Origin: Bacteriovorax sp. BAL6_X
GTDB taxonomy: Bacteria; Bdellovibrionota; Bacteriovoracia; Bacteriovoracales; Bacteriovoracaceae
DNA: 64,000 nucleotides
Reading direction: 5' to 3'
Assembly (NCBI RefSeq): GCF_000443995.1
Contig: NZ_AUMC01000003.1
Coordinates: 558,001-622,000, forward strand
Each line of letters begins with the position of its first letter. Position 1 is the stretch's first letter. Below the pieces are notes generated by a model. It searched no databases. It saw only the letters and a list, made by a program, of their open reading frames with translations, and was not told the origin of the DNA. Shown here piece after piece: positions 11,050 through 40,890 of this stretch. Both the position numbers and the translations under genes were made by a program.

Positions 11050-14000
11050 ATGAATTTTATTAATTTAGTAAACATTTTCTGTGTCTTCTTAGTGGTGTTG
11101 GCCACTAGTTCTTGTAATTCTAAGATTATTTTGAGCATTGATGAAGACTTATTCGTTTCTGAGTTAATGTTAACCAGTGATGATGGCGGTGATGAGATTC
11201 TCTCTGAAGAAATCGTTGTAACCAGAGGCGCTGCCTTTAATATGTATTCATTTGTTGGTAATCAGCACTCGAAGGAAAAGAAGCTAGTAAGTTGGGAACT
11301 AGAGTCAGGAAGTGCTCTTCTTGCAGAGGATGATACTCAGAAAGCAGTTGCAATTACAGCTCTTACTAATGGACAAGTTAGGGTTAAAGCACGCCTTAAT
11401 AATTCTCTTTCTAAGTCTGTTGTAATTAATTTTATAGATAATCAAGTCTCGTTAAAGAGATTATCACTTGAAACATTTAATGGTGCTTTAGATATTAATG
11501 CTTCTTATGTAGGCGATCTAAATGATAATTCAGTGGCAACTGCTTATCTTTGTAATGAAACTAATTCGACAAATTGTGATCCTTTGAGTGGGAATAGTTT
11601 TGCACTTAATAAAGCTGCTCCAAATTTTGGTGAGACTTTAATTAACTTATCGCCTACATATAACCCAGGTGATTTAGTACGTGTAAGGGTTGTTGCAAGT
11701 GATCCTGATGGTGAAATTGTGGATACCCTAGAGTCTGTTGTAGAGTTATCTGCGCAACCTTCAAGTTATTCTATTCCATCTTTTGATATTGAGTCGATTA
11801 GCTTTTCTCAACTTTATACTAATATTTCTGATGCAAATAATACTATTGTGAATATTTCAGATGCAGATGATATTCTTAAATATTGTTTGATTGAAAATGA
11901 TTCTACAAAGCCAAATTCAACTGCCAGTGGTAGCTGTGGTGGCCAAGATTGGTCTACTAGCATGCCAGTATCCCTAGTTATGAGTGGTGTTGAAGGAGAT
12001 AGGGATATTTACTTATGGGTTGCTGATAAATTTGATTCAATAAATACGACTACAATTACTGATTCTATTATCGTTGACAATACTATCCCTGGTCTAGTTT
12101 CAAATATTAGTCTAGGTGCCGTTAATAATGACTTATCTATTTCTCCAAGCTTGACTTGGGCGACTGATGCTATTGATTTACATAGTGGCATTCAAAAATA
12201 TCAGGTTCGTCTATTAAGAAATAGTGACTCGGTTGAGATTGTTGCTTGGACTGACTTTATAAATGGTGAGAACTTTACGGGCCTTAGCTTAGCAATGGAT
12301 ACACAGTATGATTATGAAATTCGTGCAATTGATAATGCTGGAAATATTGGAAACTCGACGGTTGCCTCCTTTGTTACAGCATCTCAAATCGGTGATCCGA
12401 CATTAAGTATACAGGGTTCTAATAGTGGCTCTTCAGTTTATGTAAATTTAAGTGACTCGCAAAATGTAGATTTAACTATTGGTAATATTTCTGATGCTGA
12501 TAAATTTTGTCTTGTCGAAGACAGCTCCACTAAGCCAAGTAGTGTATCTAATTCGAGCTGTAACGGAGGAGCTTGGTTATCGACAGCTCCTGTTGGACAT
12601 ACCTTCTCTCTAGGCGATGGAAGTCGTAGTTTATATCTTTGGGTTGCAAATTCTTTTAATGTTATAAATTTAAATCCTGTAAGTGATTCAATTATTATAG
12701 ATACATCTGTACCAACATCTATTTCAGGATTGAGTTTAACTTCTGTACCTACTAATTTGACTGAATCTCCAATTATTTCCTGGTCATCAGACTCGAATGA
12801 TACAACTTCAGGTTTATCTCATTATGAAGTTAGATTAGAAAAAAGTAGTGATAATAATACTGTTGTAGATTGGACTGCTTTTACTAAAGGAAATCGATTA
12901 TCGGGCCTATCATTAGAGAATTTTACTAATTATCGAATATTAATTAGATCAATTGATAATGCTGGAAATTACTCTTTAACTGTAAGTGATACATTTACAA
13001 CAAACTCAACTATTTCCACTCCTACTTTAGAGTTAACTGCCTTAAACTCACTATCTAATGATTATGTGAATATTGGTGATAGTTATCAAGTATCACTAAA
13101 TATATCAAATAACTCAGATGCTGTAGATTATTGTATATCAGAGGGGCAGACAACACGACCAAGCTCAACGGCAAATGGAACTTGTGATGGTGGGAACTGG
13201 CAAACAATTACTCCTACAAATTATACATTTTCAGCTGGTGAGGGGAGTCGTGAGCTTTATTTATGGGTAGCAAATAGTGATGACGTAATAAGTACAGTCG
13301 TGGCAAGTGATGCTATCTTTGTCGATAATATAGCTCCCGTTAACATTACAGGTACAACACTAGGTGCAGTTGGTACTGACTTAAGTGTTAGTCCAACAGT
13401 TTCATGGACGACTGATGGAAGTGATTCTGGTTCAGGTGTTGAACATACCATTTTCCGATTAATTCGTGATTCTGATTCATTTGAGATGGTTACATGGCAG
13501 GAGCTAACTAATGGAAGCTCTTTTTCTGGTCTATCTCTTGCGGGGAGTACAACTTATAGTATTGAGTATAAAACAGTTGATCAGGCAAGTAATGAAAGTA
13601 GTGTTGAGAGCTTAACTTTTACAACTCCTTCAATGATGGGGAACCCAAGTATATTATTAAGTTCTCCAAGTACTGCATCCACTAATTTTATAAATGGTAG
13701 TGACCTAGGGGTTGCTAATGTAGTATTAGGATCAATTGAAGATGCGGTGAAGTTTTGTCTTTCACAGGCCCAGGACTCAGCTCCTGCTTCTACAGCAAAT
13801 GGTACATGTGACGGAGGGAATTGGTCGATAGCTGAACCTTCAAGTATTTCTTTATCTGCTGGAGATGGTAATAAAACTGTTTATATTTGGGTTGCAAATT
13901 CTGGGGATGAGATAAACCCTAATGTTACTTCTAGCTCAATTACAAGAGATGATACAGGGCCTACGAGTGTCTCAGGTTTAAGTGTAGGGGGAGTTGGAGC

Positions 14001-17000
14001 TACTCTGACTTCAACACCAGTAATATCTTGGACGACTGATTCTACAGACTTAACAAGTGGAGTATCACATTACGAAGCAAGACTCATATTGACTAGTAAT
14101 TCAAGTGTTGTTTCTGATTGGGCAACCTTTTCAAATAATTCTACGATAGATTCATTATCTCTTTCATATAATACAGAGTATACGGTTGAAGTTAGGTCCC
14201 ATGATAATGCTGGAAATATTGGTACCAGTTCAAGTGTTAATTTTACGACTGCGGATACAATTGCTGATCCAACAATGTCACTTTCGTCTGCAGATACCTC
14301 TTCAACAAATTTCATAAACTTTGTTGATGCTAATACTGCTCAGCTCTTAATCGGAAATGACTCAGATGCTAGCTTATATTGTATTTCTGAGGGACAGACT
14401 ACTGCTCCAGTTTCAACATCAAGTGGAACATGTGATGGTGGCGATTGGAGTGGAACGAAACCTGTTTCATACACATTCTCTTCAACACAAGGTGTTCGAA
14501 CTCTTTATATTTGGGTTGCAAATAGTTTCGGTGTTATTAACTCTGGTGTAATTAGTGACACTATTTCAAATGATACTGTTTCTCCGACACCTATTTCAGG
14601 TTTATCTTTAGGAGCTATTCCAAATACTCTAACACAGTCACCAGATATTTCTTGGAGTGGAAATGGGACTGATGTGACATCTGGCATTGCGGCACATGAA
14701 GTACGACTCGTTCGAGTCTCTGATAGCGCTACAATTGTTGATTGGGTAGACATTGTCAATGGGGATTCTCTTACTAGCTTATCATTAGATAATAATACTC
14801 AATACTCGGTTCAAATTCGTCCACGAGATAATGCCGGAAATAAAGGTTCTTTTGAAAATATTAATTTTACGACGAACGCAACTCTAGTTGATCCAACGCT
14901 TTCTTTAGATGCATCAAACACAGGCTCTACTGATTATGTAAATTCAACAGACTCTAATTTAGTTGATGTCGTAATAGGAAATAACTCAGATGTAGTAAAG
15001 TACTGCTTAAGTGAGTCTAATACAACAAAGCCTAGTAGTACTGTAAGTGGAAGTTGTGATGGTGGAGATTGGTCGATTTCTGTCCCAACACAATTCACTT
15101 TTGATGCAACAGAAGGTAATCGAGTACTATATCTTTGGGTCGCCAACTCCGAAGATATTATAAATGATGGGCCTGTTAGTAATAGTATTATCGTGGATAG
15201 AGTTATCCCTACTGACTTAAGTGGTTTAAGCACTGGACCTGTTGGAGCAAGCTTTTCTGAAACTCCAACTATCAATTGGGTTACAAATGCGACTGATGCA
15301 ACTTCTGGCCTAAGCCATTATGAAGCGAGAGTTATCGAACTACCAAATACAAGTATTAGTAGTTGGCAGACAATTCTAAATGGTGGCTCTATTAGTGGCC
15401 TGAGTTTATCTAGTGATACAAATTATCGCATTGAGATACGAGCTCATGATCTTGCTGGAAATATTGGAAATGTACTTTTTACTGATTTTACATCGGCCGA
15501 TACAATTAATGATCCTAGTTTAGATCTTAGCTCGGGGGATACATTATCTACTGCTTACTTAAATATTTCTGACTCAAATACAGCACAAGTTCTAATTGGT
15601 AATGATACAGATGCTACTAGCTATTGTTTAAGTGAATCAAACTCAACTAAACCTAGCTCAATTGCAAATGGTACTTGTGATGGAGGTAACTGGAGCTCAA
15701 GCGCACCAACTTCAAAATCATTATCAATAGGAGAAGGAACAAAGACATTATACCTTTGGGTCGCTAATAGTTATGGTGTAATTAATAATGGCCCAATAAG
15801 TGATTCAATAATTGTTGATAATACAGTTCCAACGAATATTTCGGGAATGTCTCTTGGAACAGGTACTGGTAACTTAACTACTACACCAACTGTTTCATGG
15901 ACAACGGACTCGACAGATGGAATTTCTGGCCTATCTCATTATGAATTGAGGTTAGTGAAGGATGATGACTCTACTGAGGTTGTATCTTGGCTAACTTTCG
16001 TAAAAGGAAATAACTTATCAGGACTGAGTCTTGATAATATGGAGACCTATCGTTTTGAAGTCCGTTCAGTAGATAATTCAGGTAATAAAACGACTGTGAC
16101 ATCAGCTACCTTTACAACTAATTCAACAATTACTGATCCTACTTTTAGTATAACAGCTTCCAATACTTCTTCTACTTCGTACTTGAATACGACGGATAGT
16201 ATGCAAGTGAATGTGTCTTTATCTAATATTTCAGATGCTGTTAAATTTTGCTTAAGTGAGTCCGATTCAACACCTCCTTTGAGTACAAATTCTGGTAGTT
16301 GTGATGGCGGTGATTGGCTTGTTTCTGCTCCTACAAATTATACCTTTTCTTCAGGAGAGGGAAATCGCACAATTTATGCATGGGTAGCAAATAGTGATGA
16401 TGTTATTAATACAGGTAGCGTTAGTGATACGATTTATATTGATACTATTGCTCCTTCAAATATTTCAGGTACTACTTTAGGTGCGATTCCAAATAATCTA
16501 TCTGAAACACCTAGTCTTTCATGGACTGGTGACGGTGTCGATTCAGGAAGTGGCCTTGCCTCTACTTCTGTTCGTTTAGTTGACTCTAGTGACACTGAGA
16601 TTGTTCCTTGGACAAGCTTTACGACAGGGAGTAATTTTACTGGTTTAAGTCTTAGTGGTAATTCCGATTATACTTATGAATATAAAACAATTGATAATGC
16701 TGGTAACGAATCAATAATATCAAGTGTTCAGTTTACGACAATATCTCCAATTGCAGATCCTACATTAGAACTCTTCTCTTCTTTAACTACGTCGACTGTA
16801 TATATTAATATTAACGATAGTAAAGTTGCAGATTTAAATTTAACTAATATAGATGATGCAACAAAGTATTGCCTAAGTGAGACGCAGTCATCTAAGCCTG
16901 CTTCTACAAACTCTGGTACATGTGGTGGAGGGGATTGGCTCCTTTCTACTCCGTCAACTTACACCTTATCTGGTGGAGATGGGACGAAGGTCGTTTATAT

Positions 17001-20000
17001 TTGGGTTGCTAATGCAACAGATGAAATAAATAATGGAGTATCTAGTGATTCAATAATTTTGGATGAAACAATTCCAACTACAACGTCTTCTCTTATCTTA
17101 GGAAGTGTTGAAAATCGTCTAGATCGTACTCCAATTGTAAACTGGACGACAAATGCGATAGATGATAATGGAATTGATTATTATCAATCTCGTATAGTGA
17201 AAACAAGTGATTCAAGTACCTTTCAAGACTGGTCTAATTTCACAAAAAATACTCATATCTCAGGTCTCTCTCTTGAGAATCATACTGAGTATAGAGTTGA
17301 AATTCGTGCAGTGGATAATGCTGGTAATATCGGCGCTTCAGTTTCTTCAAATTTTACGACAAATGTAACAATAGATGACCCAACAAATTTTAAATTATCA
17401 TCTTCTGGTGGAAATGATTTCTGGCTAAATGCTACTCATAGTAATACAGCAGTTGTTTCTTTTACTGAGCCTTCTGGAGTTGATCTTTATTGTCTTAGTG
17501 AGACTCAAAGCTCTAAACCAGTTAGTACTGCAAACGGCACTTGTGGAGGAGGCAATTGGCAAAGTCTCAAACCAACGTCAATTAGTTTAGTTGCTAGTGA
17601 AGGTTTACATACTGCATACCTTTGGATTGCGAATTCTTCAGGAATTATTAATTCAAATCAAGTTTCAGCTTCAATTAGTATCGATAACACTTCTCCTGTA
17701 AATGTTTCGTCACTATCAATTGGTGCTGTGACTGAGGTTTACGCAACTCCTGACTTTAATTGGGGGACCGGCCCTAGTGATGCTACTTCTGGTGTTAGTG
17801 AAGTTCAAATTAAAGTTACGAACTCTGGATCAGATGTCATTGCTTGGACTACTGCTACAAATGGAATTTCATTAGCATTTCCGAGTGCTGAAGAGAATAC
17901 GGATTATACAATTTGGGCAAGAACGATAGATGTTGCGGGTAATATAAGTAGCTCAAGTGGAGTTTCATACACAACTCCTTTCTTTGTTAAGGATATAAGT
18001 TTATCAACAACATCGATATCAAATATGGATGTTGATACAAGTGGTCCTGGGGCAACACATACAGTTACAGTCACAAATACTGGGAATATCGAATTTAGTG
18101 GTATTACTTCTCGCCTTGAAAGTGATTTTATGATTTTTGAAATCGTTTCAGATAACTGTGATGGAGTAACTGTTTCCGTAGGTGGAACGTGTACAATTGA
18201 TGTAAGGGCGAATCCATATCGAAATGGTGCTTATAGTGGAACTCTTTATGTAGCAATCGAGAATAATGAATACTCTGTTGCTTTAAGTGGAGAGGCAACT
18301 AATATGCCTGATTTTTATGGGCCACTTGCAATTAATAATGATCAATCGGATTCTTCAACTTCAACAGTCGCTAGTCCTGGTCAAAGTTATCAATATATTC
18401 ATAATGTAAAAGACGGACCGAACAGAATTATTATTGTAAGCGCGACTTCCGATTGGATGAGTACTCCAAATGCTAAGTTCAATGGAACAACTATGACTTT
18501 AATTAGTTCTGTTTCTAGTGGATTTGGAAATAAAGTTAGATTATTTTACACTATTAACCCTCCTGTGGGTGACGGTGTTATTGAAATTACTGGTACAAAT
18601 AGTACAAGTGGTGCCTCTCAAGCTTATACCTTTTATAACGTTGATCAATCAAATCCTGTTAGTTCTGTACAATCAGATACAGCATCAAACGGTTCTGGGC
18701 AGGTAACTATTCCTTTACTTGATCATAAAGTCTCTGTTGTTGCCGTTGGTGGTAGTGATAGAACGGCATCTTCAGACATTACTCCTGAGATTGAATCTCA
18801 TTATACTGAAGGTGAGTATATTGGAATGTTTGTATATCGTGGCCCTTCATCAATTTCGCCAACTTTCTCATATGGTTCAAGTGATGATATCGCCATTGCA
18901 TCAGTGGTTTTAAATGGGCTTGAAAATTCAGCATCTTTAAACTCAAGCCCTAAGACTATTACTGATTTTGATATTCTTACTGGCTCAAGTTATGGACCAA
19001 CACATACGATTACTATTTCAAATTTAGGGGGAGCTGCTAGTAGTGTAATTCAATCTCCGGTTATCTCTGGTGATGATACATTCGTAGAAGTTGTCGCGGA
19101 TAATTGTGTAGGTAATACAATAGCTTCTGGTAGTAGCTGTACTATTGATGTTAGACCTAAATCATTTGGAAACACAAGTTATGGTGCACATATATTATTT
19201 TCAGATAGTAACTTGGAGACCAGTACTAAAATATTGGGAGAAGCATCTGGATTTGAAGCAGATATTAATGTTAAGTTAGATAACTCAACTACGACTACGG
19301 CAAGTTACACATCAGGATCACAATCTTCATTTTCTCATACTGTTGGAGATTTTAATAATCGCCTTTTAGTTGTTTCGCTAAATCAGGTCTCAAACTCATC
19401 TATCAATGCTGTTACATTTATGGGGATAAATTTAACACAACTCGATAAACAAAGTTTTCAACCAACTTCTAATTATGCGCGCTCGGAGACATGGTATCTT
19501 GTTAATCCACCAGTAGGAGCGGGAACTATTAATGTAACATCTTCGATGTCTGCAAATACCTCTATTGTTGCCAGAAATTTCTATTCAGTCGATCTAGATA
19601 ACCCGATCGAATTAATTGAAGGAAAAGTTGATAATACAAGTCCAACTAGCCTTGATGAAACCTTGGAGTCTTCTGCAACAGATTTTATGATGTTTAATCT
19701 TGCGTCGAATAGTTCTAGTATATCTTTTTCTTCAAATCTTATACCGGTAGACAGCAGATTTGTTTCTTGGAATTCACAAATAGGACTCACTCAATTACTA
19801 TTTCAAAAGGGTGGGCTTAATTCTTATCAATTTACTCCAAGCTCTACTGCCTCTTCTATTGCTTATCAAGCGATTAGAATTAATAGTGCTTTAAATACTA
19901 CTTCTCTTAGAATTTCTGCGACAAGTAGTTTTGATCTTTCAGGTGGAAACACTAGTAGTACGATTCAATACTCAGTAAGAAATAATGGTGGTGTTACTTC

Positions 20001-20847
20001 ATCAATTCTTAATGCAGCAACTATTGATAGTGGAATGTCTTATTATAATATTATAACAGATAATTGTAGTGGTATTTCCCTTGCTGCTGGCGAGTCTTGT
20101 ATTCTTGATGTTGAAGCGTCGACAGTGGCAAATGGAACGTTAAATGGTCAAATCTCTATTGATGATGGTGTATTTTCATCAAGTAGAGCCTTAAGTACTG
20201 TTGCATCAGGACACGCAAATGATTTATTTCCATCTTATGATGATTTAAATTTTACTAAGGCCAACTTTTCTTCTAGTTCAACATCTTATACTCAGTCTCA
20301 TACAATCGCGGCAGGTAATAATCGATTATTAGTTGTGAATGTAGTAGGACACTTTAATATATTAAATTTTACAAGTATTACTTATGGTGGAGTCCCACTA
20401 ACTCGACTTGATACAAGAACGCAGAGTTCAGGGGCAAAAACTGAAATATGGTATCTTATTAATCCAAGTGTTGGGACTGATGATATTGTAATAAATGTTA
20501 ACAATTCTTCTTTTGATATTGCAATGATGGCCTCTAATTTTACAAATGTTCATCAATCAACACCATTTGATCTAACTACAAAAGGTGGAGGACAGAGTAA
20601 TCTTTCTGTATCAGTTAATAACTCAGAAATGCAGTATTCATTTATATCAATTGGTAGAGGAGACAATATTGATGTTATAGAATCTCATACTCCATTAGCT
20701 CGTGACTTTATTGAGACTGATAATTCAGATAATGGCCTAACAATGTTGATTTATCCAGATAACTTTGTTGAGAATGTTGACGTGGATCTTGATTTTGATT
20801 ACGGTGCGTATATAAAAACTTCCATTAATAGTATTTACTATCCATAA
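11050..20847 (+). CDS. Giant repetitive surface lipoprotein / putative adhesin (3265 residues)
   Basis: The N-terminus is a lipoprotein signal ending LATSSC. Residues ~40-140 resemble a bacterial Ig-like domain. From ~237 to ~2313 there are ten tandem repeats of about 208 residues. Each has a Cys pair in a YCLSE...G-T-C-GG-W pattern, then LWVANS, IIVDNT.P..ISGLSLG, SWTTDSTD..SGLSHYE.RL and a fibronectin III-like end (Y.vEIRAVDNAGN). The marker P..ISGLSLG recurs every 618-624 bp from ~12087 to ~17692. After 2313 come three copies of a ~320-residue composite: a choice-of-anchor D (ASPM/hydin-like) domain with an N/DNC...C pair, then a beta domain with NRLLVV and EIWYLINP.VG. It ends at a strong hairpin. 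Adhesion to prey or surfaces is inferred from architecture only. Confidence 0.9.
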   Translation: MNFINLVNIFCVFLVVLATSSCNSKIILSIDEDLFVSELMLTSDDGGDEILSEEIVVTRGAAFNMYSFVGNQHSKEKKLVSWELESGSALLAEDDTQKAVAITALTNGQVRVKARLNNSLSKSVVINFIDNQVSLKRLSLETFNGALDINASYVGDLNDNSVATAYLCNETNSTNCDPLSGNSFALNKAAPNFGETLINLSPTYNPGDLVRVRVVASDPDGEIVDTLESVVELSAQPSSYSIPSFDIESISFSQLYTNISDANNTIVNISDADDILKYCLIENDSTKPNSTASGSCGGQDWSTSMPVSLVMSGVEGDRDIYLWVADKFDSINTTTITDSIIVDNTIPGLVSNISLGAVNNDLSISPSLTWATDAIDLHSGIQKYQVRLLRNSDSVEIVAWTDFINGENFTGLSLAMDTQYDYEIRAIDNAGNIGNSTVASFVTASQIGDPTLSIQGSNSGSSVYVNLSDSQNVDLTIGNISDADKFCLVEDSSTKPSSVSNSSCNGGAWLSTAPVGHTFSLGDGSRSLYLWVANSFNVINLNPVSDSIIIDTSVPTSISGLSLTSVPTNLTESPIISWSSDSNDTTSGLSHYEVRLEKSSDNNTVVDWTAFTKGNRLSGLSLENFTNYRILIRSIDNAGNYSLTVSDTFTTNSTISTPTLELTALNSLSNDYVNIGDSYQVSLNISNNSDAVDYCISEGQTTRPSSTANGTCDGGNWQTITPTNYTFSAGEGSRELYLWVANSDDVISTVVASDAIFVDNIAPVNITGTTLGAVGTDLSVSPTVSWTTDGSDSGSGVEHTIFRLIRDSDSFEMVTWQELTNGSSFSGLSLAGSTTYSIEYKTVDQASNESSVESLTFTTPSMMGNPSILLSSPSTASTNFINGSDLGVANVVLGSIEDAVKFCLSQAQDSAPASTANGTCDGGNWSIAEPSSISLSAGDGNKTVYIWVANSGDEINPNVTSSSITRDDTGPTSVSGLSVGGVGATLTSTPVISWTTDSTDLTSGVSHYEARLILTSNSSVVSDWATFSNNSTIDSLSLSYNTEYTVEVRSHDNAGNIGTSSSVNFTTADTIADPTMSLSSADTSSTNFINFVDANTAQLLIGNDSDASLYCISEGQTTAPVSTSSGTCDGGDWSGTKPVSYTFSSTQGVRTLYIWVANSFGVINSGVISDTISNDTVSPTPISGLSLGAIPNTLTQSPDISWSGNGTDVTSGIAAHEVRLVRVSDSATIVDWVDIVNGDSLTSLSLDNNTQYSVQIRPRDNAGNKGSFENINFTTNATLVDPTLSLDASNTGSTDYVNSTDSNLVDVVIGNNSDVVKYCLSESNTTKPSSTVSGSCDGGDWSISVPTQFTFDATEGNRVLYLWVANSEDIINDGPVSNSIIVDRVIPTDLSGLSTGPVGASFSETPTINWVTNATDATSGLSHYEARVIELPNTSISSWQTILNGGSISGLSLSSDTNYRIEIRAHDLAGNIGNVLFTDFTSADTINDPSLDLSSGDTLSTAYLNISDSNTAQVLIGNDTDATSYCLSESNSTKPSSIANGTCDGGNWSSSAPTSKSLSIGEGTKTLYLWVANSYGVINNGPISDSIIVDNTVPTNISGMSLGTGTGNLTTTPTVSWTTDSTDGISGLSHYELRLVKDDDSTEVVSWLTFVKGNNLSGLSLDNMETYRFEVRSVDNSGNKTTVTSATFTTNSTITDPTFSITASNTSSTSYLNTTDSMQVNVSLSNISDAVKFCLSESDSTPPLSTNSGSCDGGDWLVSAPTNYTFSSGEGNRTIYAWVANSDDVINTGSVSDTIYIDTIAPSNISGTTLGAIPNNLSETPSLSWTGDGVDSGSGLASTSVRLVDSSDTEIVPWTSFTTGSNFTGLSLSGNSDYTYEYKTIDNAGNESIISSVQFTTISPIADPTLELFSSLTTSTVYININDSKVADLNLTNIDDATKYCLSETQSSKPASTNSGTCGGGDWLLSTPSTYTLSGGDGTKVVYIWVANATDEINNGVSSDSIILDETIPTTTSSLILGSVENRLDRTPIVNWTTNAIDDNGIDYYQSRIVKTSDSSTFQDWSNFTKNTHISGLSLENHTEYRVEIRAVDNAGNIGASVSSNFTTNVTIDDPTNFKLSSSGGNDFWLNATHSNTAVVSFTEPSGVDLYCLSETQSSKPVSTANGTCGGGNWQSLKPTSISLVASEGLHTAYLWIANSSGIINSNQVSASISIDNTSPVNVSSLSIGAVTEVYATPDFNWGTGPSDATSGVSEVQIKVTNSGSDVIAWTTATNGISLAFPSAEENTDYTIWARTIDVAGNISSSSGVSYTTPFFVKDISLSTTSISNMDVDTSGPGATHTVTVTNTGNIEFSGITSRLESDFMIFEIVSDNCDGVTVSVGGTCTIDVRANPYRNGAYSGTLYVAIENNEYSVALSGEATNMPDFYGPLAINNDQSDSSTSTVASPGQSYQYIHNVKDGPNRIIIVSATSDWMSTPNAKFNGTTMTLISSVSSGFGNKVRLFYTINPPVGDGVIEITGTNSTSGASQAYTFYNVDQSNPVSSVQSDTASNGSGQVTIPLLDHKVSVVAVGGSDRTASSDITPEIESHYTEGEYIGMFVYRGPSSISPTFSYGSSDDIAIASVVLNGLENSASLNSSPKTITDFDILTGSSYGPTHTITISNLGGAASSVIQSPVISGDDTFVEVVADNCVGNTIASGSSCTIDVRPKSFGNTSYGAHILFSDSNLETSTKILGEASGFEADINVKLDNSTTTTASYTSGSQSSFSHTVGDFNNRLLVVSLNQVSNSSINAVTFMGINLTQLDKQSFQPTSNYARSETWYLVNPPVGAGTINVTSSMSANTSIVARNFYSVDLDNPIELIEGKVDNTSPTSLDETLESSATDFMMFNLASNSSSISFSSNLIPVDSRFVSWNSQIGLTQLLFQKGGLNSYQFTPSSTASSIAYQAIRINSALNTTSLRISATSSFDLSGGNTSSTIQYSVRNNGGVTSSILNAATIDSGMSYYNIITDNCSGISLAAGESCILDVEASTVANGTLNGQISIDDGVFSSSRALSTVASGHANDLFPSYDDLNFTKANFSSSSTSYTQSHTIAAGNNRLLVVNVVGHFNILNFTSITYGGVPLTRLDTRTQSSGAKTEIWYLINPSVGTDDIVINVNNSSFDIAMMASNFTNVHQSTPFDLTTKGGGQSNLSVSVNNSEMQYSFISIGRGDNIDVIESHTPLARDFIETDNSDNGLTMLIYPDNFVENVDVDLDFDYGAYIKTSINSIYYP

Positions 20848-35485: not shown

Positions 35486-36067
35486 CTATCGACAATAAGG
35501 GATATCGTATTTCTTTGTGAAAACTTGTTTGTACTCTCTGTCTCCACGTCTTCTGTTGCGGATAACTTCTTTTTTTAGAGTGATTTCTGATGTTTGGTTT
35601 TGTCGATAAACTGTTTTAACCATTCGACAGTTTCTATCTTTTCTCCCAAAACAAACTTTTTCTTCTTTTTCTACCTCTATTGGATATGTAAGAATTTTAG
35701 AACCAACGACGATGTCTTTATAACGATTACCATCCTTGCTACCACCAAGCCATACTCTCTTATAGACTGGATACTCTGAAATCGATTGGATTTGATCATT
35801 ATTAATACAAACGTCAAAGATAGAAATATGTCTACCTAGGTAAGCAACATCTCCATCTAGTTTTAAATCGTAGTTTTTCTTTACATACTTTCTAATAGTC
35901 TTCCAGTCGTACTGTTTTAACTCTGTAAGATCGTCGACACCGCCGACAATTCCACCAGTACCGGCATCAACGCCACCATTATTTCTATTTAATGCACTAA
36001 TTCCACCTGTTCCTGCGACTGTGTTTAATGCAATTCCTAGAAATAATATTGCAATTATTGACTTCAT
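35486..36067 (-). CDS. Secreted four-Cys paralogue A' (regulator-linked)
   Basis: 193 residues with signal peptide (MKSIIAILFLGIALNTVAG). A Gly-rich segment (TGGI..., GGVDAGTGGIVGG) precedes the domain shared by five proteins in this locus: W-x-x-I...V, L-x-G/S-x-x-V-x-V/L-GR, a Cys in IFDVC, a P-[IV]-Y segment, VG-x-x-x-L-[TS]-[YF]-P, a CFGRKDRNC pair and a final P-[YA]-C. It belongs to class A, with the GGS...RY.DIVVG and CFG-DRNC variants. It starts nine bases after the stop of the upstream HTH regulator, so the two are one operon. Function unknown; periplasmic or extracellular by signal. Confidence 0.85.
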   Translation of the reverse strand: MKSIIAILFLGIALNTVAGTGGISALNRNNGGVDAGTGGIVGGVDDLTELKQYDWKTIRKYVKKNYDLKLDGDVAYLGRHISIFDVCINNDQIQSISEYPVYKRVWLGGSKDGNRYKDIVVGSKILTYPIEVEKEEKVCFGRKDRNCRMVKTVYRQNQTSEITLKKEVIRNRRRGDREYKQVFTKKYDIPYCR

Positions 36068-36076
36068 TATAAAACC

Positions 36077-36880
36077 TTATTCCTTTCTCATTGTGTCAGT
36101 GGCCATGAATGTGAATGTTTTTATATCACCTAACATGCCTTCTTTTTTAGTTACTTCAATCTTTTTGTAAAATGCTTCCTGATCGATTTTTAGCCATGCT
36201 CGGTAACCTTCTGGACTTAGTCCTTCAGCATAGAATGCAATTAGGTTTTTTTCGGCGAGATCAACATCTTGAGTCTTTACATATTTCTCAACTAAGTTGA
36301 GTCCAAGCCTTTTTACAAGCTTCGGTGAAAACTCTATTTGCTTGTCACCAGTTGTGTACATATTTGTCTTAGTTAGCTTAAGGACGCCAAGGTCTAGCAT
36401 ACGATCTGCAGTTTCTGCTCCGCTCATTCCATAACGATATTGAATATACTCATTCGTAATAGGGGACATTGAAGCGAGACAGTAAATCTCTGCAAAAACC
36501 TTATCGTAGAACATTTCCTTATTAGCTTCTTCGCTATATTCAAGATTTCCTACTGTTGAAATAGGAGATTTCTTTTGAATTTCATTTGCAACTTTTTCAG
36601 GAAGATTCTTTAAAAGTAGGCCACCGTTTGGGCTATCAATTAAGCAAGTATATAGTCTTACAAGAGTTTGATAACCTGGCCTATTTTCTTGAGCTAATAG
36701 ACGCTTTAGCGTTCTTTGGTGAATACCAGACTTTTCTGAAAGTTTACGAAGTCCAATAGATTCACTTCTAAATTGCTTTAGGTGTGATTCTAAATCTAGA
36801 GCAACTTGCTCTTTGAGCCCTAGTGAAGGAATGGCCTTCTCTTGCAACTCATTGATTATATTGGAGTTTTCTTCTCTCAT
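36077..36880 (-). CDS. HTH regulator paralogue 1 of the secreted-protein locus
   Basis: 267 residues, no signal peptide. Residues ~43-77 form a helix-turn-helix (GLRKLSEKSGIHQRTLKRLL, then ENRPGYQTLVRLY). A second, winged-helix-like region lies at ~130-190 (PITNEYIQYRYGMSG...LGVLKLTKTNMYTTGD), and a C-terminal helical domain ends FTFMATDTMRKE. The layout recalls the TIGR02147/DUF4423 regulators of Fibrobacter and Bdellovibrio, but the N-terminus differs and I do not assert membership. It is co-linear, same-length and clearly homologous with the gene at 38339-39142. GAGG precedes the ATG. The linked gene A' follows after nine bases. Confidence 0.8.
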   Translation of the reverse strand: MREENSNIINELQEKAIPSLGLKEQVALDLESHLKQFRSESIGLRKLSEKSGIHQRTLKRLLAQENRPGYQTLVRLYTCLIDSPNGGLLLKNLPEKVANEIQKKSPISTVGNLEYSEEANKEMFYDKVFAEIYCLASMSPITNEYIQYRYGMSGAETADRMLDLGVLKLTKTNMYTTGDKQIEFSPKLVKRLGLNLVEKYVKTQDVDLAEKNLIAFYAEGLSPEGYRAWLKIDQEAFYKKIEVTKKEGMLGDIKTFTFMATDTMRKE

Positions 36881-36952
36881 TTTGCCTCAAGTATTTTTGG
36901 CGATCTTACCACTTTTCATAATTTTATTCATTTAAGCAGTAAAAATTACAAA

Positions 36953-37018
36953 GGCCGAAGCAGTGCCTCGGCCAATAGTTTTATTTATAGTGAGCGCCTC
37001 TTAGGGAAAGGCGCTCAC
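36953..37018 (-). terminator. Double hairpin downstream of secreted gene A
   Basis: A strong 10-bp stem (GTGAGCGCCT at 36990-36999 with AGGCGCTCAC at 37009-37018) is followed, reading leftward, by a second stem (GGCCGAAG / CCTCGGCC, one mismatch, 36953-36973) and a T-rich run. It ends transcription of A before the regulator gene. Confidence 0.75.
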
Positions 37019-37036
37019 CTAGGCCCAAGCTTATAA

Positions 37037-37534
37037 CTAGTTACAAGCTGGGATTTCGAAAGACTTAGCGAAAAGTACTTCTACTTTGTCATCGTGATCA
37101 CGTCCACCACGACGAGTAACTTCTGAAACAGTGATATCTCTAACAACTGGTTGAGTTTCCATTTTAGTTACAGTTTTACAGTTTCTGTCTTCTTTACCAA
37201 AACAGATCTTTCTTGTTACTTCTCTTGAGATTGGGAAAGTTAGTGTTTCGTAACCAACAACGATATCTTCGTATCTGTCACCACCATTACGGCTTCCACC
37301 GATCCACTTTCTTTCATAGATTGGGTACTGGCTTAGAGTAACAAAGTTATCACCTTCAACACAAACGTCAAATGCAGTAACGATACGGCCAACAAATACT
37401 GAGTACCCTGAAGAAATCTCTAGGCTTGGGTTAGCTTTAACTTCAGCTCTAATTGTATCCCATGAGTCATTTGCAGATAGTGCAAAAGATGAAACGCTTA
37501 GTAGTGCAGCAGCAAGTGCGATAATTTTTTTCAT
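37037..37534 (-). CDS. Secreted four-Cys paralogue A (stand-alone)
   Basis: The frame opens at 37561, but GGAGG lies just before the ATG at 37534, giving 165 residues. Signal peptide MKKIIALAAALLSVSSFALS, then directly NDSWDTIRAEV without the Gly-rich insert of the regulator-linked copies. It is class A: KWIGGSRNGGDRYEDIVVG, CFGKEDRNC and terminal IPAC. The protein is identical to the one encoded at 39965-40462, and the DNA is identical over 536 bp including the ribosome site. It has its own upstream elements and terminator, so it is a single-gene unit. Function unknown. Confidence 0.87.
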   Translation of the reverse strand: MKKIIALAAALLSVSSFALSANDSWDTIRAEVKANPSLEISSGYSVFVGRIVTAFDVCVEGDNFVTLSQYPIYERKWIGGSRNGGDRYEDIVVGYETLTFPISREVTRKICFGKEDRNCKTVTKMETQPVVRDITVSEVTRRGGRDHDDKVEVLFAKSFEIPACN

Positions 37535-37573
37535 AAATTCCTCCGATTTGTTTGTTATCAAAAATTGATTTAT
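37038..37573. repeat. 536-bp perfect direct repeat, copy 1
   Basis: Base-for-base identical by eye to 39966-40501 (offset 2928 bp). It covers the whole coding region of A except its stop codon's first minus-strand difference (TAG versus TAA), the ribosome site and ~40 bp of leader. Identity stops abruptly: one mismatch, 15 more matches, then clear divergence. Confidence 0.95.
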
Positions 37574-37591
37574 TAATTTCTATATTTTTAA

Positions 37592-37603
37592 AGTTGCTTT
37601 GAT
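37592..37603 (-). promoter_or_regulatory. Conserved 12-bp upstream element (gene A)
   Basis: Plus-strand AGTTGCTTTGAT, 58 bp upstream of the A start. The same element (AGTTGTTTTGAT) occurs 57 and 56 bp before A2 and B. It is probably part of their promoters or an activator site. Confidence 0.5.
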
Positions 37604-37668
37604 GAAATGAAATTAATTTGATTGATATAAGGTGACAATCTCTTTAACGGAAATGGGCATTTTTATCA

Positions 37669-37713
37669 GACATTGTCCTTATTCTTTATTTTTGTCATGA
37701 CAAATGGACAAAT
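37669..37713. promoter_or_regulatory. Candidate operator cluster upstream of gene A
   Basis: Contains GACATTGTCC (37669-37678), a perfect 14-bp palindrome TTTGTCATGACAAA (37691-37704) and GGACAAAT (37706-37713), ~135-180 bp before the A start. GACATTGTCC and GGACAAAT recur at the same distance before A2. Confidence 0.5.
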
Positions 37714-37733
37714 CAGTATAGTTTAATACAAAA

Positions 37734-37757
37734 AAAGGGCCGCTTGTGCGGCCCTTT
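37734..37757. terminator. Terminator downstream of B'
   Basis: A perfect 10-bp stem AAAGGGCCGC / GCGGCCCTTT with a TTGT loop and an A-run at the left, which is a T-run for the leftward B' transcript. Confidence 0.88.
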
Positions 37758-37776
37758 GATTTATTTTGTTTGAATT

Positions 37777-38337
37777 TTATTGGCAGTATGGAATGATGTA
37801 TTCCTTCTTAAAGTGGTCTTGCTCGACTTCTCTAGGTCTATCACTATTTGGTCTATAAACAATAACTTTCTTCACTTTAACGTTTTTAATTGTTTCTGTT
37901 GATACCTCTTTCTTAACTTCACGACATCGCTTTCCGTTATTATTACAAACCTTTTGGCGTGTTGTGTAGTTTATTGGATATGTTAAATACTTGCTTCCAA
38001 CAATTTCAGTTTTAAAACCATCTTTGTCAGCACCGTAATGACTTTTCCCAACATATCTTGTTTTATAGATAGGAAACTTTCTTGTCGTTTGAATTTCGTC
38101 ACCATTTAAACAAGTTTCAAAAATACTTACAGGTCTTGATACAAAGACAGTTGTACCCTCAAGCTTAACGTCAAAATTTCTCTTTGTTACATCGAGAATT
38201 CTTTGCCAAGAAGTTTGCGGCCCAAGCTTTGAGAAATCATCCTTAGTAGGTTTAGGGCCTCCTGAGACGCCACCAACGCCAGCATATATCGACATTGTCG
38301 AAATGATAGCTATTAATTTTATTATATTATTCTTCAT
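37777..38337 (-). CDS. Secreted four-Cys paralogue B' (regulator-linked)
   Basis: 186 residues from ATG 38337, one base after the regulator's stop codon; the frame also opens at 38349 inside the regulator. Signal peptide MKNNIIKLIAIISTMSIYAG, then a Gly-rich segment (VGGVSGGPKP) like that of A', then the shared domain. It is class B: YVGKSHYGADKDGF, IVGSKYLTYP, and CNNNGKRC in place of the CFG-DRNC of class A. The mature part is basic and ends IPYCQ. It is tightly coupled to HTH regulator 2. Function unknown; exported by signal. Confidence 0.85.
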   Translation of the reverse strand: MKNNIIKLIAIISTMSIYAGVGGVSGGPKPTKDDFSKLGPQTSWQRILDVTKRNFDVKLEGTTVFVSRPVSIFETCLNGDEIQTTRKFPIYKTRYVGKSHYGADKDGFKTEIVGSKYLTYPINYTTRQKVCNNNGKRCREVKKEVSTETIKNVKVKKVIVYRPNSDRPREVEQDHFKKEYIIPYCQ

Positions 38338-38338
38338 A

Positions 38339-39142
38339 TTACTTCTCATTCAAAGTGTCTGTTACCATAAAAGTAAAAGCTCTCTTTGCTCCTTTTGATT
38401 TGTCTTCATTTGCAATTGCAATTTTTTCCTCAAATGCCTTTGCATCTACTTGCAGCCATCGATCATAAGCTTCTTCACTTAACCCATCAGCGAAAAAGGC
38501 GATGATATTTTCTCCGAATGACTCCGCATTTTGTACTTTGCTGTACTTTTCAATTAATGATAGTCCTAAACGCTTTAAGGTTTTAGCACTAAAATTTGCT
38601 TGGTTTTCACCTAGGCTATAGTGACCACTTTTCGTGACTCTGAGGGCCTTCATTTCAATCATTTTTTCTACTGTTAGCATTCCACTCATTCCGTAACGAT
38701 ATTGTATTAACTCGTTAGTTATAGGCGCGCATGCCGCTAGTATATATATCTCAGCAAAAGTACGATCGTAACTCATCTGAGTTTCGATATCTTGATGATA
38801 TTGTATTTTTTCTGAGACTTTATTTGGATTGCATTTCTTTATTTCATTTCGAATGACTTCTGGGACAAGTTCTAAGAGTAGGGACTCGTTGCTTGTATTA
38901 AAAATGACTCGATAGATTTTATAAAGTGTTTGATATGTAGGCTTATTCTCTTTTGCCAGGATTCGATAAAGTGTTCTTTCACTAACTCCTGTTTTTTCAG
39001 AAAAAAGACGAACACCAATTTTTACGCTCTTATACTCATCTAGTTTTTTTGCTAGATCTAAGCTAACTTGCTCAATAAGTGCTAGGGGCGCATGAGATAA
39101 TTGTGGGGTGTTCATTTTATCCATAGAAAGCTTGAATAGCAT
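38339..39142 (-). CDS. HTH regulator paralogue 2 of the secreted-protein locus
   Basis: 267 residues if the first ATG is used (ATGs at 39124 and 39115 are alternatives; no ribosome site decides). It aligns without gaps to the gene at 36077-36880: HTH at ~43-77 (GVRLFSEKTGVSERTLYRIL), shared PITNE-IQYRYGMSG block, SLIEKYSKVQ, and the C-terminal FTFMVTDTLNEK. Paralogous genes of equal length, each followed directly by a secreted-protein gene, show that the regulator-target pair was duplicated as a unit. No signal peptide. Ligand and DNA site unknown. Confidence 0.8.
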   Translation of the reverse strand: MLFKLSMDKMNTPQLSHAPLALIEQVSLDLAKKLDEYKSVKIGVRLFSEKTGVSERTLYRILAKENKPTYQTLYKIYRVIFNTSNESLLLELVPEVIRNEIKKCNPNKVSEKIQYHQDIETQMSYDRTFAEIYILAACAPITNELIQYRYGMSGMLTVEKMIEMKALRVTKSGHYSLGENQANFSAKTLKRLGLSLIEKYSKVQNAESFGENIIAFFADGLSEEAYDRWLQVDAKAFEEKIAIANEDKSKGAKRAFTFMVTDTLNEK

Positions 39143-39180
39143 GAGTCGAATCTGTTATCTACTCATGCTATAAAAAGTAT

Positions 39181-39212
39181 AGCTTAAGTACCTTAGGGAA
39201 AATACTTAAGCT
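39181..39212 (-). terminator. Terminator downstream of gene B
   Basis: AGCTTAAGTA (39181-39190) pairs perfectly with TACTTAAGCT (39203-39212). On the minus strand the stem is followed by a short T-rich run. It lies between B and regulator 2. Confidence 0.65.
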
Positions 39213-39222
39213 ATTGAATTTA

Positions 39223-39723
39223 TTAGTTACAAGCTGGGATTACGTATTCTTTAGTGAATAATGTTTTCTTGATCGTACGATCGTTTGATCCAACATTTCT
39301 TCTAACTACTTCTTTTACAGATACGTTCTTAGTAAGGTTTTGGTTAACTGTGTAAGCAACTCTTTTACAGTTCTTGTCACGGTTATTACATACTTGCTTG
39401 TATGAAGTATAAGTAGTTGGGTAAGAAAGGATTTCGTAACCAACGATTACTGATGCGTATCCATCTTCGTCAGCTTCTGGGTGAGTTTTTCCAACTTTAA
39501 CGATTTCGTAGATTGGGAATTCTCTAGTAGTAACAAATTGGTCACCGTCTAGACATACGTCAAATGAACTTACTGGACGACCAACAAATACAGTTGTTCC
39601 TGAAATCGATAGATCATAATCAGCAGAAACTTCAGCTCTGATTGTATCCCATGAATCATTTGCAGATAGTGCAAAAGATGAAACGCTTAGTAGTGCAGCA
39701 GCAAGTGCGATAATTTTTTTCAT
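39223..39723 (-). CDS. Secreted four-Cys paralogue B (stand-alone)
   Basis: 166 residues from ATG 39723, directly preceded by GGAGG (the frame opens at 39747). Signal peptide and first mature residues (MKKIIALAAALLSVSSFALS, NDSWDTIRAEV) are identical to A. The interior is class B: VGKTHPEADEDGY, IVGYEILSYP, CNNRDKNC. The C-terminus returns to the A-type IPACN. Conserved ends with a different middle make the gene look mosaic. It has its own terminator and upstream element. Function unknown. Confidence 0.87.
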   Translation of the reverse strand: MKKIIALAAALLSVSSFALSANDSWDTIRAEVSADYDLSISGTTVFVGRPVSSFDVCLDGDQFVTTREFPIYEIVKVGKTHPEADEDGYASVIVGYEILSYPTTYTSYKQVCNNRDKNCKRVAYTVNQNLTKNVSVKEVVRRNVGSNDRTIKKTLFTKEYVIPACN

Positions 39724-39734
39724 AAATTCCTCCG
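39656..39734. repeat. 79-bp leader cassette shared with genes A and A2
   Basis: Identical over 79 bp to the corresponding parts of A and A2: ribosome site, start codon, signal peptide codons and first mature codons. Identity at silent positions shows recent common origin or conversion, although the rest of the gene is strongly diverged. Confidence 0.8.
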
Positions 39735-39778
39735 GTTTATTAGACATTCATTTAATATTTGAAGCCTTTAATTAATTA

Positions 39779-39790
39779 AGTTGTTTTGAT
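39779..39790 (-). promoter_or_regulatory. Conserved 12-bp upstream element (gene B)
   Basis: AGTTGTTTTGAT on the plus strand, 56 bp before the B start, matching A and A2. A single GGACAA half-site (about 39855-39860) lies further upstream. Confidence 0.5.
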
Positions 39791-39920
39791 GTAGAGGTTA
39801 TATTTTTGACGAAAGAAGATGTCTAAAAAACACAAAGAATATTTAAATTTTCTCGGACAACGGCAGTAGAGCGGGGAATTTTAACTGTCATGAGTAGGAA
39901 GATGACAGTAGAAAAAGAAA

Positions 39921-39942
39921 AGGCCGAGCATAAACTCGGCCT
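39921..39942 (-). terminator. Terminator downstream of gene A2
   Basis: AGGCCGAG / CTCGGCCT stem with a 6-base loop. On the minus strand it is followed by TTTTCTTTTTC. Confidence 0.85.
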
Positions 39943-39964
39943 CAACTTTTATATGTACTTGATA

Positions 39965-40462
39965 TTAGTTACAAGCTGGGATTTCGAAAGACTTAGCGAA
40001 AAGTACTTCTACTTTGTCATCGTGATCACGTCCACCACGACGAGTAACTTCTGAAACAGTGATATCTCTAACAACTGGTTGAGTTTCCATTTTAGTTACA
40101 GTTTTACAGTTTCTGTCTTCTTTACCAAAACAGATCTTTCTTGTTACTTCTCTTGAGATTGGGAAAGTTAGTGTTTCGTAACCAACAACGATATCTTCGT
40201 ATCTGTCACCACCATTACGGCTTCCACCGATCCACTTTCTTTCATAGATTGGGTACTGGCTTAGAGTAACAAAGTTATCACCTTCAACACAAACGTCAAA
40301 TGCAGTAACGATACGGCCAACAAATACTGAGTACCCTGAAGAAATCTCTAGGCTTGGGTTAGCTTTAACTTCAGCTCTAATTGTATCCCATGAGTCATTT
40401 GCAGATAGTGCAAAAGATGAAACGCTTAGTAGTGCAGCAGCAAGTGCGATAATTTTTTTCAT
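39965..40462 (-). CDS. Secreted four-Cys paralogue A2 (identical to A)
   Basis: From ATG 40462 (GGAGG just upstream; the frame opens at 40504) it encodes 165 residues identical to gene A at 37037-37534: same signal peptide, class A motifs and terminal IPACN. Only the stop codon differs (TAA here, TAG in A). It is the first gene of the leftward series A2, B, regulator 2, B', A, regulator 1, A', with its own promoter region and terminator. Two identical expressed copies may raise dosage or serve as conversion donors; both are inference. Confidence 0.87.
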   Translation of the reverse strand: MKKIIALAAALLSVSSFALSANDSWDTIRAEVKANPSLEISSGYSVFVGRIVTAFDVCVEGDNFVTLSQYPIYERKWIGGSRNGGDRYEDIVVGYETLTFPISREVTRKICFGKEDRNCKTVTKMETQPVVRDITVSEVTRRGGRDHDDKVEVLFAKSFEIPACN

Positions 40463-40595: not shown

Positions 40596-40654
40596 GACAT
40601 TGTCCAATTGTAACAAGTTCTTCAGGACAAATTGGTTAGAAATAGGACAAATGG
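40596..40654. promoter_or_regulatory. Candidate operator cluster upstream of A2
   Basis: GACATTGTCC (40596-40605), then two GGACAAAT sites (40625-40632 and 40645-40652), starting 134 bp upstream of A2. Apart from these, the terminator at 40764 and the 12-bp element, I see nothing in the 350-bp gap 40463-40814. Confidence 0.5.

Positions 40655-40814: not shown

Positions 40815-40890
<76 letters not shown>

Follow-up and report, generated by a model that had tools for sequence, protein, structure and literature searches.

What ties the genes of several small secreted proteins to two paralogous regulators at one locus of Bacteriovorax sp. BAL6_X? The locus occupies positions 35486-40462 of the 64,000-nucleotide stretch analysed here (contig NZ_AUMC01000003.1, positions 558,001 to 622,000; hereafter the window), where seven genes follow one another on the minus strand in the order A2, [B, regB, B'], [A, regA, A']. 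Each bracket encloses one module, in which the gene of a stand-alone secreted protein (A or B) is followed by that of a helix-turn-helix (HTH) regulator and by a regulator-linked gene for a second secreted protein (A' or B'). Judged by gene order and sequence motifs, this cassette is found across the Bdellovibrionota, with many copies in the predatory bacteria of the phylum. We lean, with modest confidence, towards a reading in which the stand-alone gene is under the control of the regulator, exerted at GGACA/TGTCC sites, and in which the exported product of the linked gene, marked by a Gly motif, serves as a signal, feedback or assembly partner.

A cassette that recurs across the phylum

The features of the locus, in the numbering of the window, are as follows.

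40596-40629, minus strand: predicted operator upstream of A2, of the type TGTCC-N20-GGACAATGTC, with 1 mismatch to TGTCA-N20-GACAWTGTC
39965-40462, minus strand: A2, stand-alone secreted four-Cys protein, 165 aa, all coding bases as in A
39223-39723, minus strand: B, stand-alone secreted four-Cys protein, 166 aa, with a strong GGAGG and high codon bias, without the canonical operator upstream
39179-39214, minus strand: terminator-like hairpin between B and regB
38339-39142, minus strand: regB, regulator that combines an XRE-type HTH with a winged-helix-like part; identity, tree and model make it the orthologue of the regulators found in single-module relatives
38257-38280, minus strand: Gly motif of B' (GVGGVSGG), immediately behind the signal peptide and conserved only among linked genes
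37777-38337, minus strand: B', regulator-linked secreted protein with the Gly motif, 186 aa, starting +1 nt after the regB stop; model pLDDT (predicted local distance difference test) 80
37669-37702, minus strand: predicted operator upstream of A, TGTCA-N20-GACAATGTC, the sole perfect match in the genome and present also in relatives
37037-37534, minus strand: A, stand-alone secreted four-Cys protein, 165 aa
36953-36973, minus strand: terminator-like hairpin between A and regA
36077-36880, minus strand: regA, paralogous regulator on a long branch, 47% identical to regB
35939-36013, minus strand: Gly-rich segment of A' (GTGGIS...GTGGIVGG)
35486-36067, minus strand: A', regulator-linked secreted protein with an enlarged Gly-rich segment, 193 aa, starting +9 nt after the regA stop

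This gene order is the one given by the initial annotation, and much of what was said there of the gene products was borne out. Alignment confirmed that all five small proteins have a signal peptide and share a domain in which four Cys are invariant, with GGS..RY.DIVVG and CFG..DRNC in the A type and CNN...C in the B type; among the five, only A' and B' carry a Gly-rich insert after the signal peptide, and both linked genes begin within a few bases of their regulator. The regulators had been called equal-length paralogues. Their paralogy stands (the identity extends over 245 residues), and the equal length of 267 aa depends on the first start codon; regB possibly starts some residues later.

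A search with a profile of the regulators found matches in 66 of 129 genomes of the order, and the neighbourhoods of 59 distinct regulators of the order were read; a second set was drawn from further families of the phylum, with 20 loci for linked open reading frames (ORFs) and 19 for upstream sites. In 59/59 loci of the order, a signal-peptide-like ORF starts between -20 and +21 nt from the regulator stop, frequently through an ATGA overlap. A Gly motif such as AGVGGIAGG or AGGDYGGGP stands soon after the signal peptide in 51/59 linked ORFs, against a background of 4/191 among the other signal-peptide-like ORFs of these loci; three of those four belong to such cassettes, two are linked genes with an alternative start, and one resembles the Gly-motif partners of DUF4423 regulators. 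The second set has a Gly-motif ORF directly behind the regulator in 20/20 loci, 13 of these ORFs being 39-49 codons long. Recurrence of the unit of regulator and secreted protein in relatives, which had been proposed as a check, is thus supported. Searched for as a DNA pattern genome-wide, the Gly motif gave 17 matches, both linked genes included, and was not enriched over the reversed control.

The short form is that of the Bdellovibrio family, where the stand-alone gene is present (13 loci) and the linked gene of 39-49 codons (for example, MKHFISLLLLIILAASQGAARGGGSAGGSGNSSPKNGSNK) overlaps or almost touches the end of the regulator gene. It encodes a signal peptide and a Gly peptide with a mature part of 18-19 aa, without any domain. 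From GGG onward, these ORFs differ between related genomes almost solely at synonymous positions, the two most diverged pairs in one related-genome group showing 10 synonymous versus 2 or 1 non-synonymous codons, and the signal peptide changes more freely than the mature part. On this pattern of substitution, the mature Gly peptide in Bdellovibrio is under purifying selection. The possibility that the short ORF is a dead remnant was rejected on the synonymous excess in its mature part. Together, the short ORFs and the conservation of their mature part show that what the linked gene conserves at its core is signal peptide plus Gly peptide, and argue that the Gly segment is not merely a domain linker.

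Predicted operators upstream of the stand-alone genes

The element [TC]GTCA-N20-GACAnTGTC lies upstream of A and of the genes of relatives G003, G015 and G007, with N21 in G020 and a variant in G059. At 0-1 mismatch, the full A/A2 element occurs in the 3.23 Mb genome upstream of A (0) and A2 (1) only; matches at 2 mismatches are noise (46 versus 81 for the reversed control). The canonical operator was not found upstream of B. Other regulator clades have their own spacing, the HFQ clade carrying GACATGTC (N0), often in two copies 31-32 bp apart, and the YDV clade GACAnnTGTC (N2). Over the order, GACA-N0..2-TGTC is present in 25/59 upstream regions, with 0.3 expected and at most 3 in 200 shuffles, and the half-site spacing class tracks the regulator clades (support 100/100, 99/94 and 100/100). 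The phylum set has GGACA/TGTCC sites in 17/19 upstream regions (0.33 expected), with half-sites touching or 9-12 bp apart; in nine loci two such sites stand 30-32 bp apart. These distributions suggest that the regulator binds GGACA/TGTCC sites.

Within the window, B (upstream region 39724-39960) is orthologous to the stand-alone genes of single-module relatives, and a deviating recognition helix is found in regA (HQRTL), not in regB (SERTL, as in the single-module regulators). The regulator predicted to bind the A and A2 sites is accordingly regB, and regA may not bind them. Because B is without the operator of A/A2 and regA has the deviating recognition helix, the wiring of the A and B modules may be crossed. 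A GACATTGTC palindrome at 38291-38299, inside the start of the B' gene, is a possible extra site.

A model for cassette function

In the mechanism that we propose, the regulator, of about 250-300 aa, consisting of an XRE-type HTH and a winged-helix-like C-terminal part and produced at an ordinary level, would bind its sites upstream of the stand-alone gene, often as a pair, and would switch the expression of a disulphide-rich beta protein that is made abundantly and exported. The next gene, immediately after that of the regulator, would export the Gly-motif product, as a bare peptide in Bdellovibrio and, in the Bacteriovoracales version, as a Gly peptide fused to a secreted domain that is often the stand-alone's own; this product would be the cassette's own signal or feedback partner. 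The window would hold such a circuit twice (A and B), together with the extra stand-alone copy A2. Gene order, linkage, the Gly motif, peptide conservation, site enrichment, clade spacing and codon bias are the sequence-based ground of this model, and from them we infer binding by the regulator, the direction in which it regulates, export, and what the Gly product does.

Several points weigh against the model. A Gly product that is exported would have to act on a regulator in the cytoplasm. The strict palindrome is missing in 34/59 loci, B included, and the match between spacing and clade rests on three clades and few independent events. The Bdellovibrio set served both to recognise the wider half-site spacing and to count it, so that the figure of 17/19 is partly post hoc. 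Finally, signal peptides were called by hydrophobicity alone.

We tentatively suggest a more specific form, namely peptide signalling unrelated to RRNPP, in which the co-encoded exported Gly peptide acts back on the regulator and sets the output of the abundant secreted protein, and in which each genome runs several such cassettes in parallel, each with a specificity of its own. This form is possible, and we would not expect it to be the likelier outcome.

The stand-alone proteins and their linked partners

C-ending codons (two-fold and Ile sets) make up 57-61% in A, A2 and B, against a window median of 31%, and place these genes 2nd to 4th of the 47 window ORFs, behind a peroxiredoxin-like ORF; from this usage, the three are probably very highly expressed. 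The regulators and linked genes lie near the window median and would be made at an ordinary level. A terminator-like hairpin lies behind each of A2, B, B', A and A', so the regulator and its linked gene probably form a separate transcript.

A secreted protein without the Gly motif is often encoded upstream of the regulator, on the same strand or divergently. Stand-alone and linked proteins share a domain family in several unrelated families, including the A/B type, the 'HFQ..STWV' type and the 'VCNGGESG' type, and in the 'VCNGGESG' type of G233 the two domains are nearly the same. Domain identity in the A/B family is 0.477 within a locus versus 0.363 across loci (1/5040 permutations), the effect being strongest in two loops, and the linked gene is the longer branch in 6/7 pairs. 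The HFQ family has no significant within-locus effect (70/720 permutations), and we therefore do not generalise pair matching to all families. Recent gene conversion as the source of the likeness of A and A' was rejected, same-residue codon sharing being 0.50 both within and across loci; the within-module fit may reflect mutual adjustment or an older concerted change. The secreted proteins gave no match in Pfam, NCBIfam or PDB sequence searches, and the model of B' (only 6 sequences aligned) gave no PDB fold match by Foldseek or VIA-align, which does not prove a new fold.

A domain common to both partners in several families raises the alternative of a structural partnership, in which the stand-alone protein would be the major and the linked protein a minor or anchoring subunit of an envelope or extracellular assembly, with the Gly motif as an attachment or assembly element and a regulator that sets amounts only. 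The pair-specific loops of the A/B family speak for it, and the codon bias suggests one major and one minor product. The alternative fares worse with the Bdellovibrio linked gene, which has no domain at all, and with the absence of a pair effect in the HFQ family, and it offers no reason for the minor part to be linked in every case to the regulator and not to the major gene. We consider it rather unlikely, while ranking it first among the alternatives to control by the regulator with a Gly-motif partner.

Gene conversion between A and A2

The coding sequences of A2 and A are identical at 495/495 bases. Upstream, identity falls over successive 30-bp blocks from 27/30 to 22/30 and then to about half, and the flanks more than 60 bp upstream and past the stop codon are only ~30-75% identical. 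An identical coding part between diverged flanks indicates gene conversion, by which A2, on this evidence, is kept identical to A. B shares the signal-peptide region with A/A2 at the DNA level, with the same codon for 29/31 shared residues; between B and the G003 gene, the same codon is used at 11/23.

The initial annotation had suggested a variable surface or secreted effector family. On a reading of this kind, repeats would diversify an antigen or ligand through gene conversion and the regulators would be incidental neighbours. The identity of A and A2 despite their differing flanks, and the 5' end that B shares with them, would suit such an exchange, but conversion at this locus homogenises and does not diversify, and five relatives have one module and no spare copies. 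A secreted partner also stands beside every regulator studied, so the association is not incidental. We regard this explanation as improbable.

History of the two modules

The best-matching relatives, G003 (same genus), G015, G020, G007 and G059, belong to the Bacteriovoracaceae/Halobacteriovoraceae, and each has one module only, of the B kind and with the same gene order. In the regulator tree, regA, regB and these five single-module regulators form one clade (support 99/94). Within it, regB groups with the regulators of G003 and G020, and regA is a long early branch outside them; regB is 59-69% identical to the G015, G020 and G003 regulators and 51% identical to that of G007. Forcing regA and regB into a sister pair costs 10 log units (approximately unbiased test, p = 0.09), an arrangement that is disfavoured and not rejected.

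The earlier proposal, duplication of the whole unit followed by divergence of its parts together, is not supported in that form. The best tree of the secreted proteins pairs A with A' (85/88), not with B, and likewise pairs the stand-alone and linked proteins of two other genomes, whereas simple duplication of a unit would place A with B and A' with B'. What does fit the proposal is that regA and regB belong to one clade and that secreted proteins of the A/B family are more like their module partner than like the partners at other loci. Given the single B-kind module of the five relatives, the A module must be an older paralogue or else a duplicate that has evolved fast. Duplication as a set is one possibility; equally plausible are an older duplication followed by loss in other lineages, and a copy that evolved quickly. 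As to the surroundings, a tRNA-Val (tac) lies at 40815-40890, directly before the A2 gene region, and a single ORF of 3265 codons at 11050-20847 of the window.

The regulator family

Both window regulators are 267 aa long, within a range of about 245-309 aa across loci. The model of regB (8-sequence alignment, pLDDT 76) shows an N-terminal XRE-type HTH followed by a winged-helix-like part, and in Foldseek its N-terminal DNA-binding fold matches XRE repressors (best E 0.08, probability up to 1.0). No Pfam or NCBIfam family scored above cut-off for regA, regB or their relatives. The HTH part of regB scores 21.2 bits in Pfam (cut-off 27) and 18.7 in NCBIfam (cut-off 53.7) against the HI1420-type addiction module antidote, below the curated cut-off for membership. 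A toxin-antitoxin or effector-immunity system, with the regulator as an antitoxin-like HTH protein or the linked protein as the immunity homologue of a stand-alone effector, would draw on this weak likeness and on the pairing of homologous secreted proteins, with faster evolution on the linked side, but is highly improbable, as both products are probably exported, no toxin-like domain was found in Pfam, NCBIfam or PDB searches, the bare Gly peptide of Bdellovibrio fits neither role, and the same layout occurs with many unrelated domains.

Comparison with known systems

Our literature search found no published description of the cassette; DUF4423 appears as a table entry only, and TIGR02147 returned nothing. 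The closest functional parallel is with the RRNPP systems of Firmicutes (Rgg, Rap, NprR, PlcR, PrgX), in which an HTH regulator likewise adjoins a small signal-peptide ORF, of 39-49 codons in the Bdellovibrio cassettes. The RRNPP signature has five parts: a propeptide of 10-100 aa, Sec export, a receptor of 250-500 aa, TPR repeats and gene adjacency (PMC10075063). The window regulators have receptor size, and adjacency is found throughout the 59 loci. Signal-peptide-like N-termini, called by hydrophobicity only, occur in all cassette loci read, and export is probable for the Bdellovibrio-type cassette. The 13 Bdellovibrio-family loci fall within the propeptide range, and the linked proteins of the window, at 186 and 193 aa, fall outside it. 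TPR repeats were not detected by Pfam in 17 members, nor by Pfam and NCBIfam in the window regulators. The cassette also differs in its phylum and in having a third gene with a shared domain. With no TPR detected and window linked proteins that are too long, the cassette is not an RRNPP member, though by analogy it may work like one.

TIGR02147/DUF4423 (PF14394) regulators resemble those of the cassette in having an HTH and a C-terminal domain, in length, in occurring in the same genomes and in their secreted Gly-motif neighbour. They differ in that neither regA nor regB matches TIGR02147 or PF14394 at the curated cut-off, and comparison of the regulator profile with true members gave a weak match (p = 0.0012, probability 19.5%). 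Layout and weak profile match together suggest kinship. In BAL6_X and its relatives, a secreted GNGG[DG] protein is often encoded a few bases behind TIGR02147/DUF4423 regulators (L160-L193), or facing them. At G000:C10:385206-386610 (L006, L161) and in L031, L032, L033 and L036, distant A/B relatives (SDSWDTI..., with more Cys) lie directly before a TIGR02147 regulator, which is followed by a secreted protein of ~320 aa with GNGGG or GNGSG, giving again a stand-alone protein, a regulator and a Gly-motif partner. In one Halobacteriovorax metagenome-assembled genome (L036:2782-7387), cassettes of both regulator families adjoin.

With XRE-family repressors (lambda cI, SinR and the controller C proteins of restriction systems), the cassette regulators share the N-terminal DNA-binding fold and palindromes upstream of a presumed target, and they differ in their extra C-terminal part of ~180 residues and in the constant exported partner gene.

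Implications

Predatory bacteria are rich in unannotated secreted proteins without known control, and the cassette offers a regulator family outside Pfam and NCBIfam. To this it adds a predicted binding site and a secreted output, predicted to be highly expressed, for which no PDB relative was detected by sequence or fold, and it brings to light an easily overlooked 40-codon gene in Bdellovibrio. If the Gly peptide does act as a signal, the cassette would represent peptide communication in Gram-negative predators.

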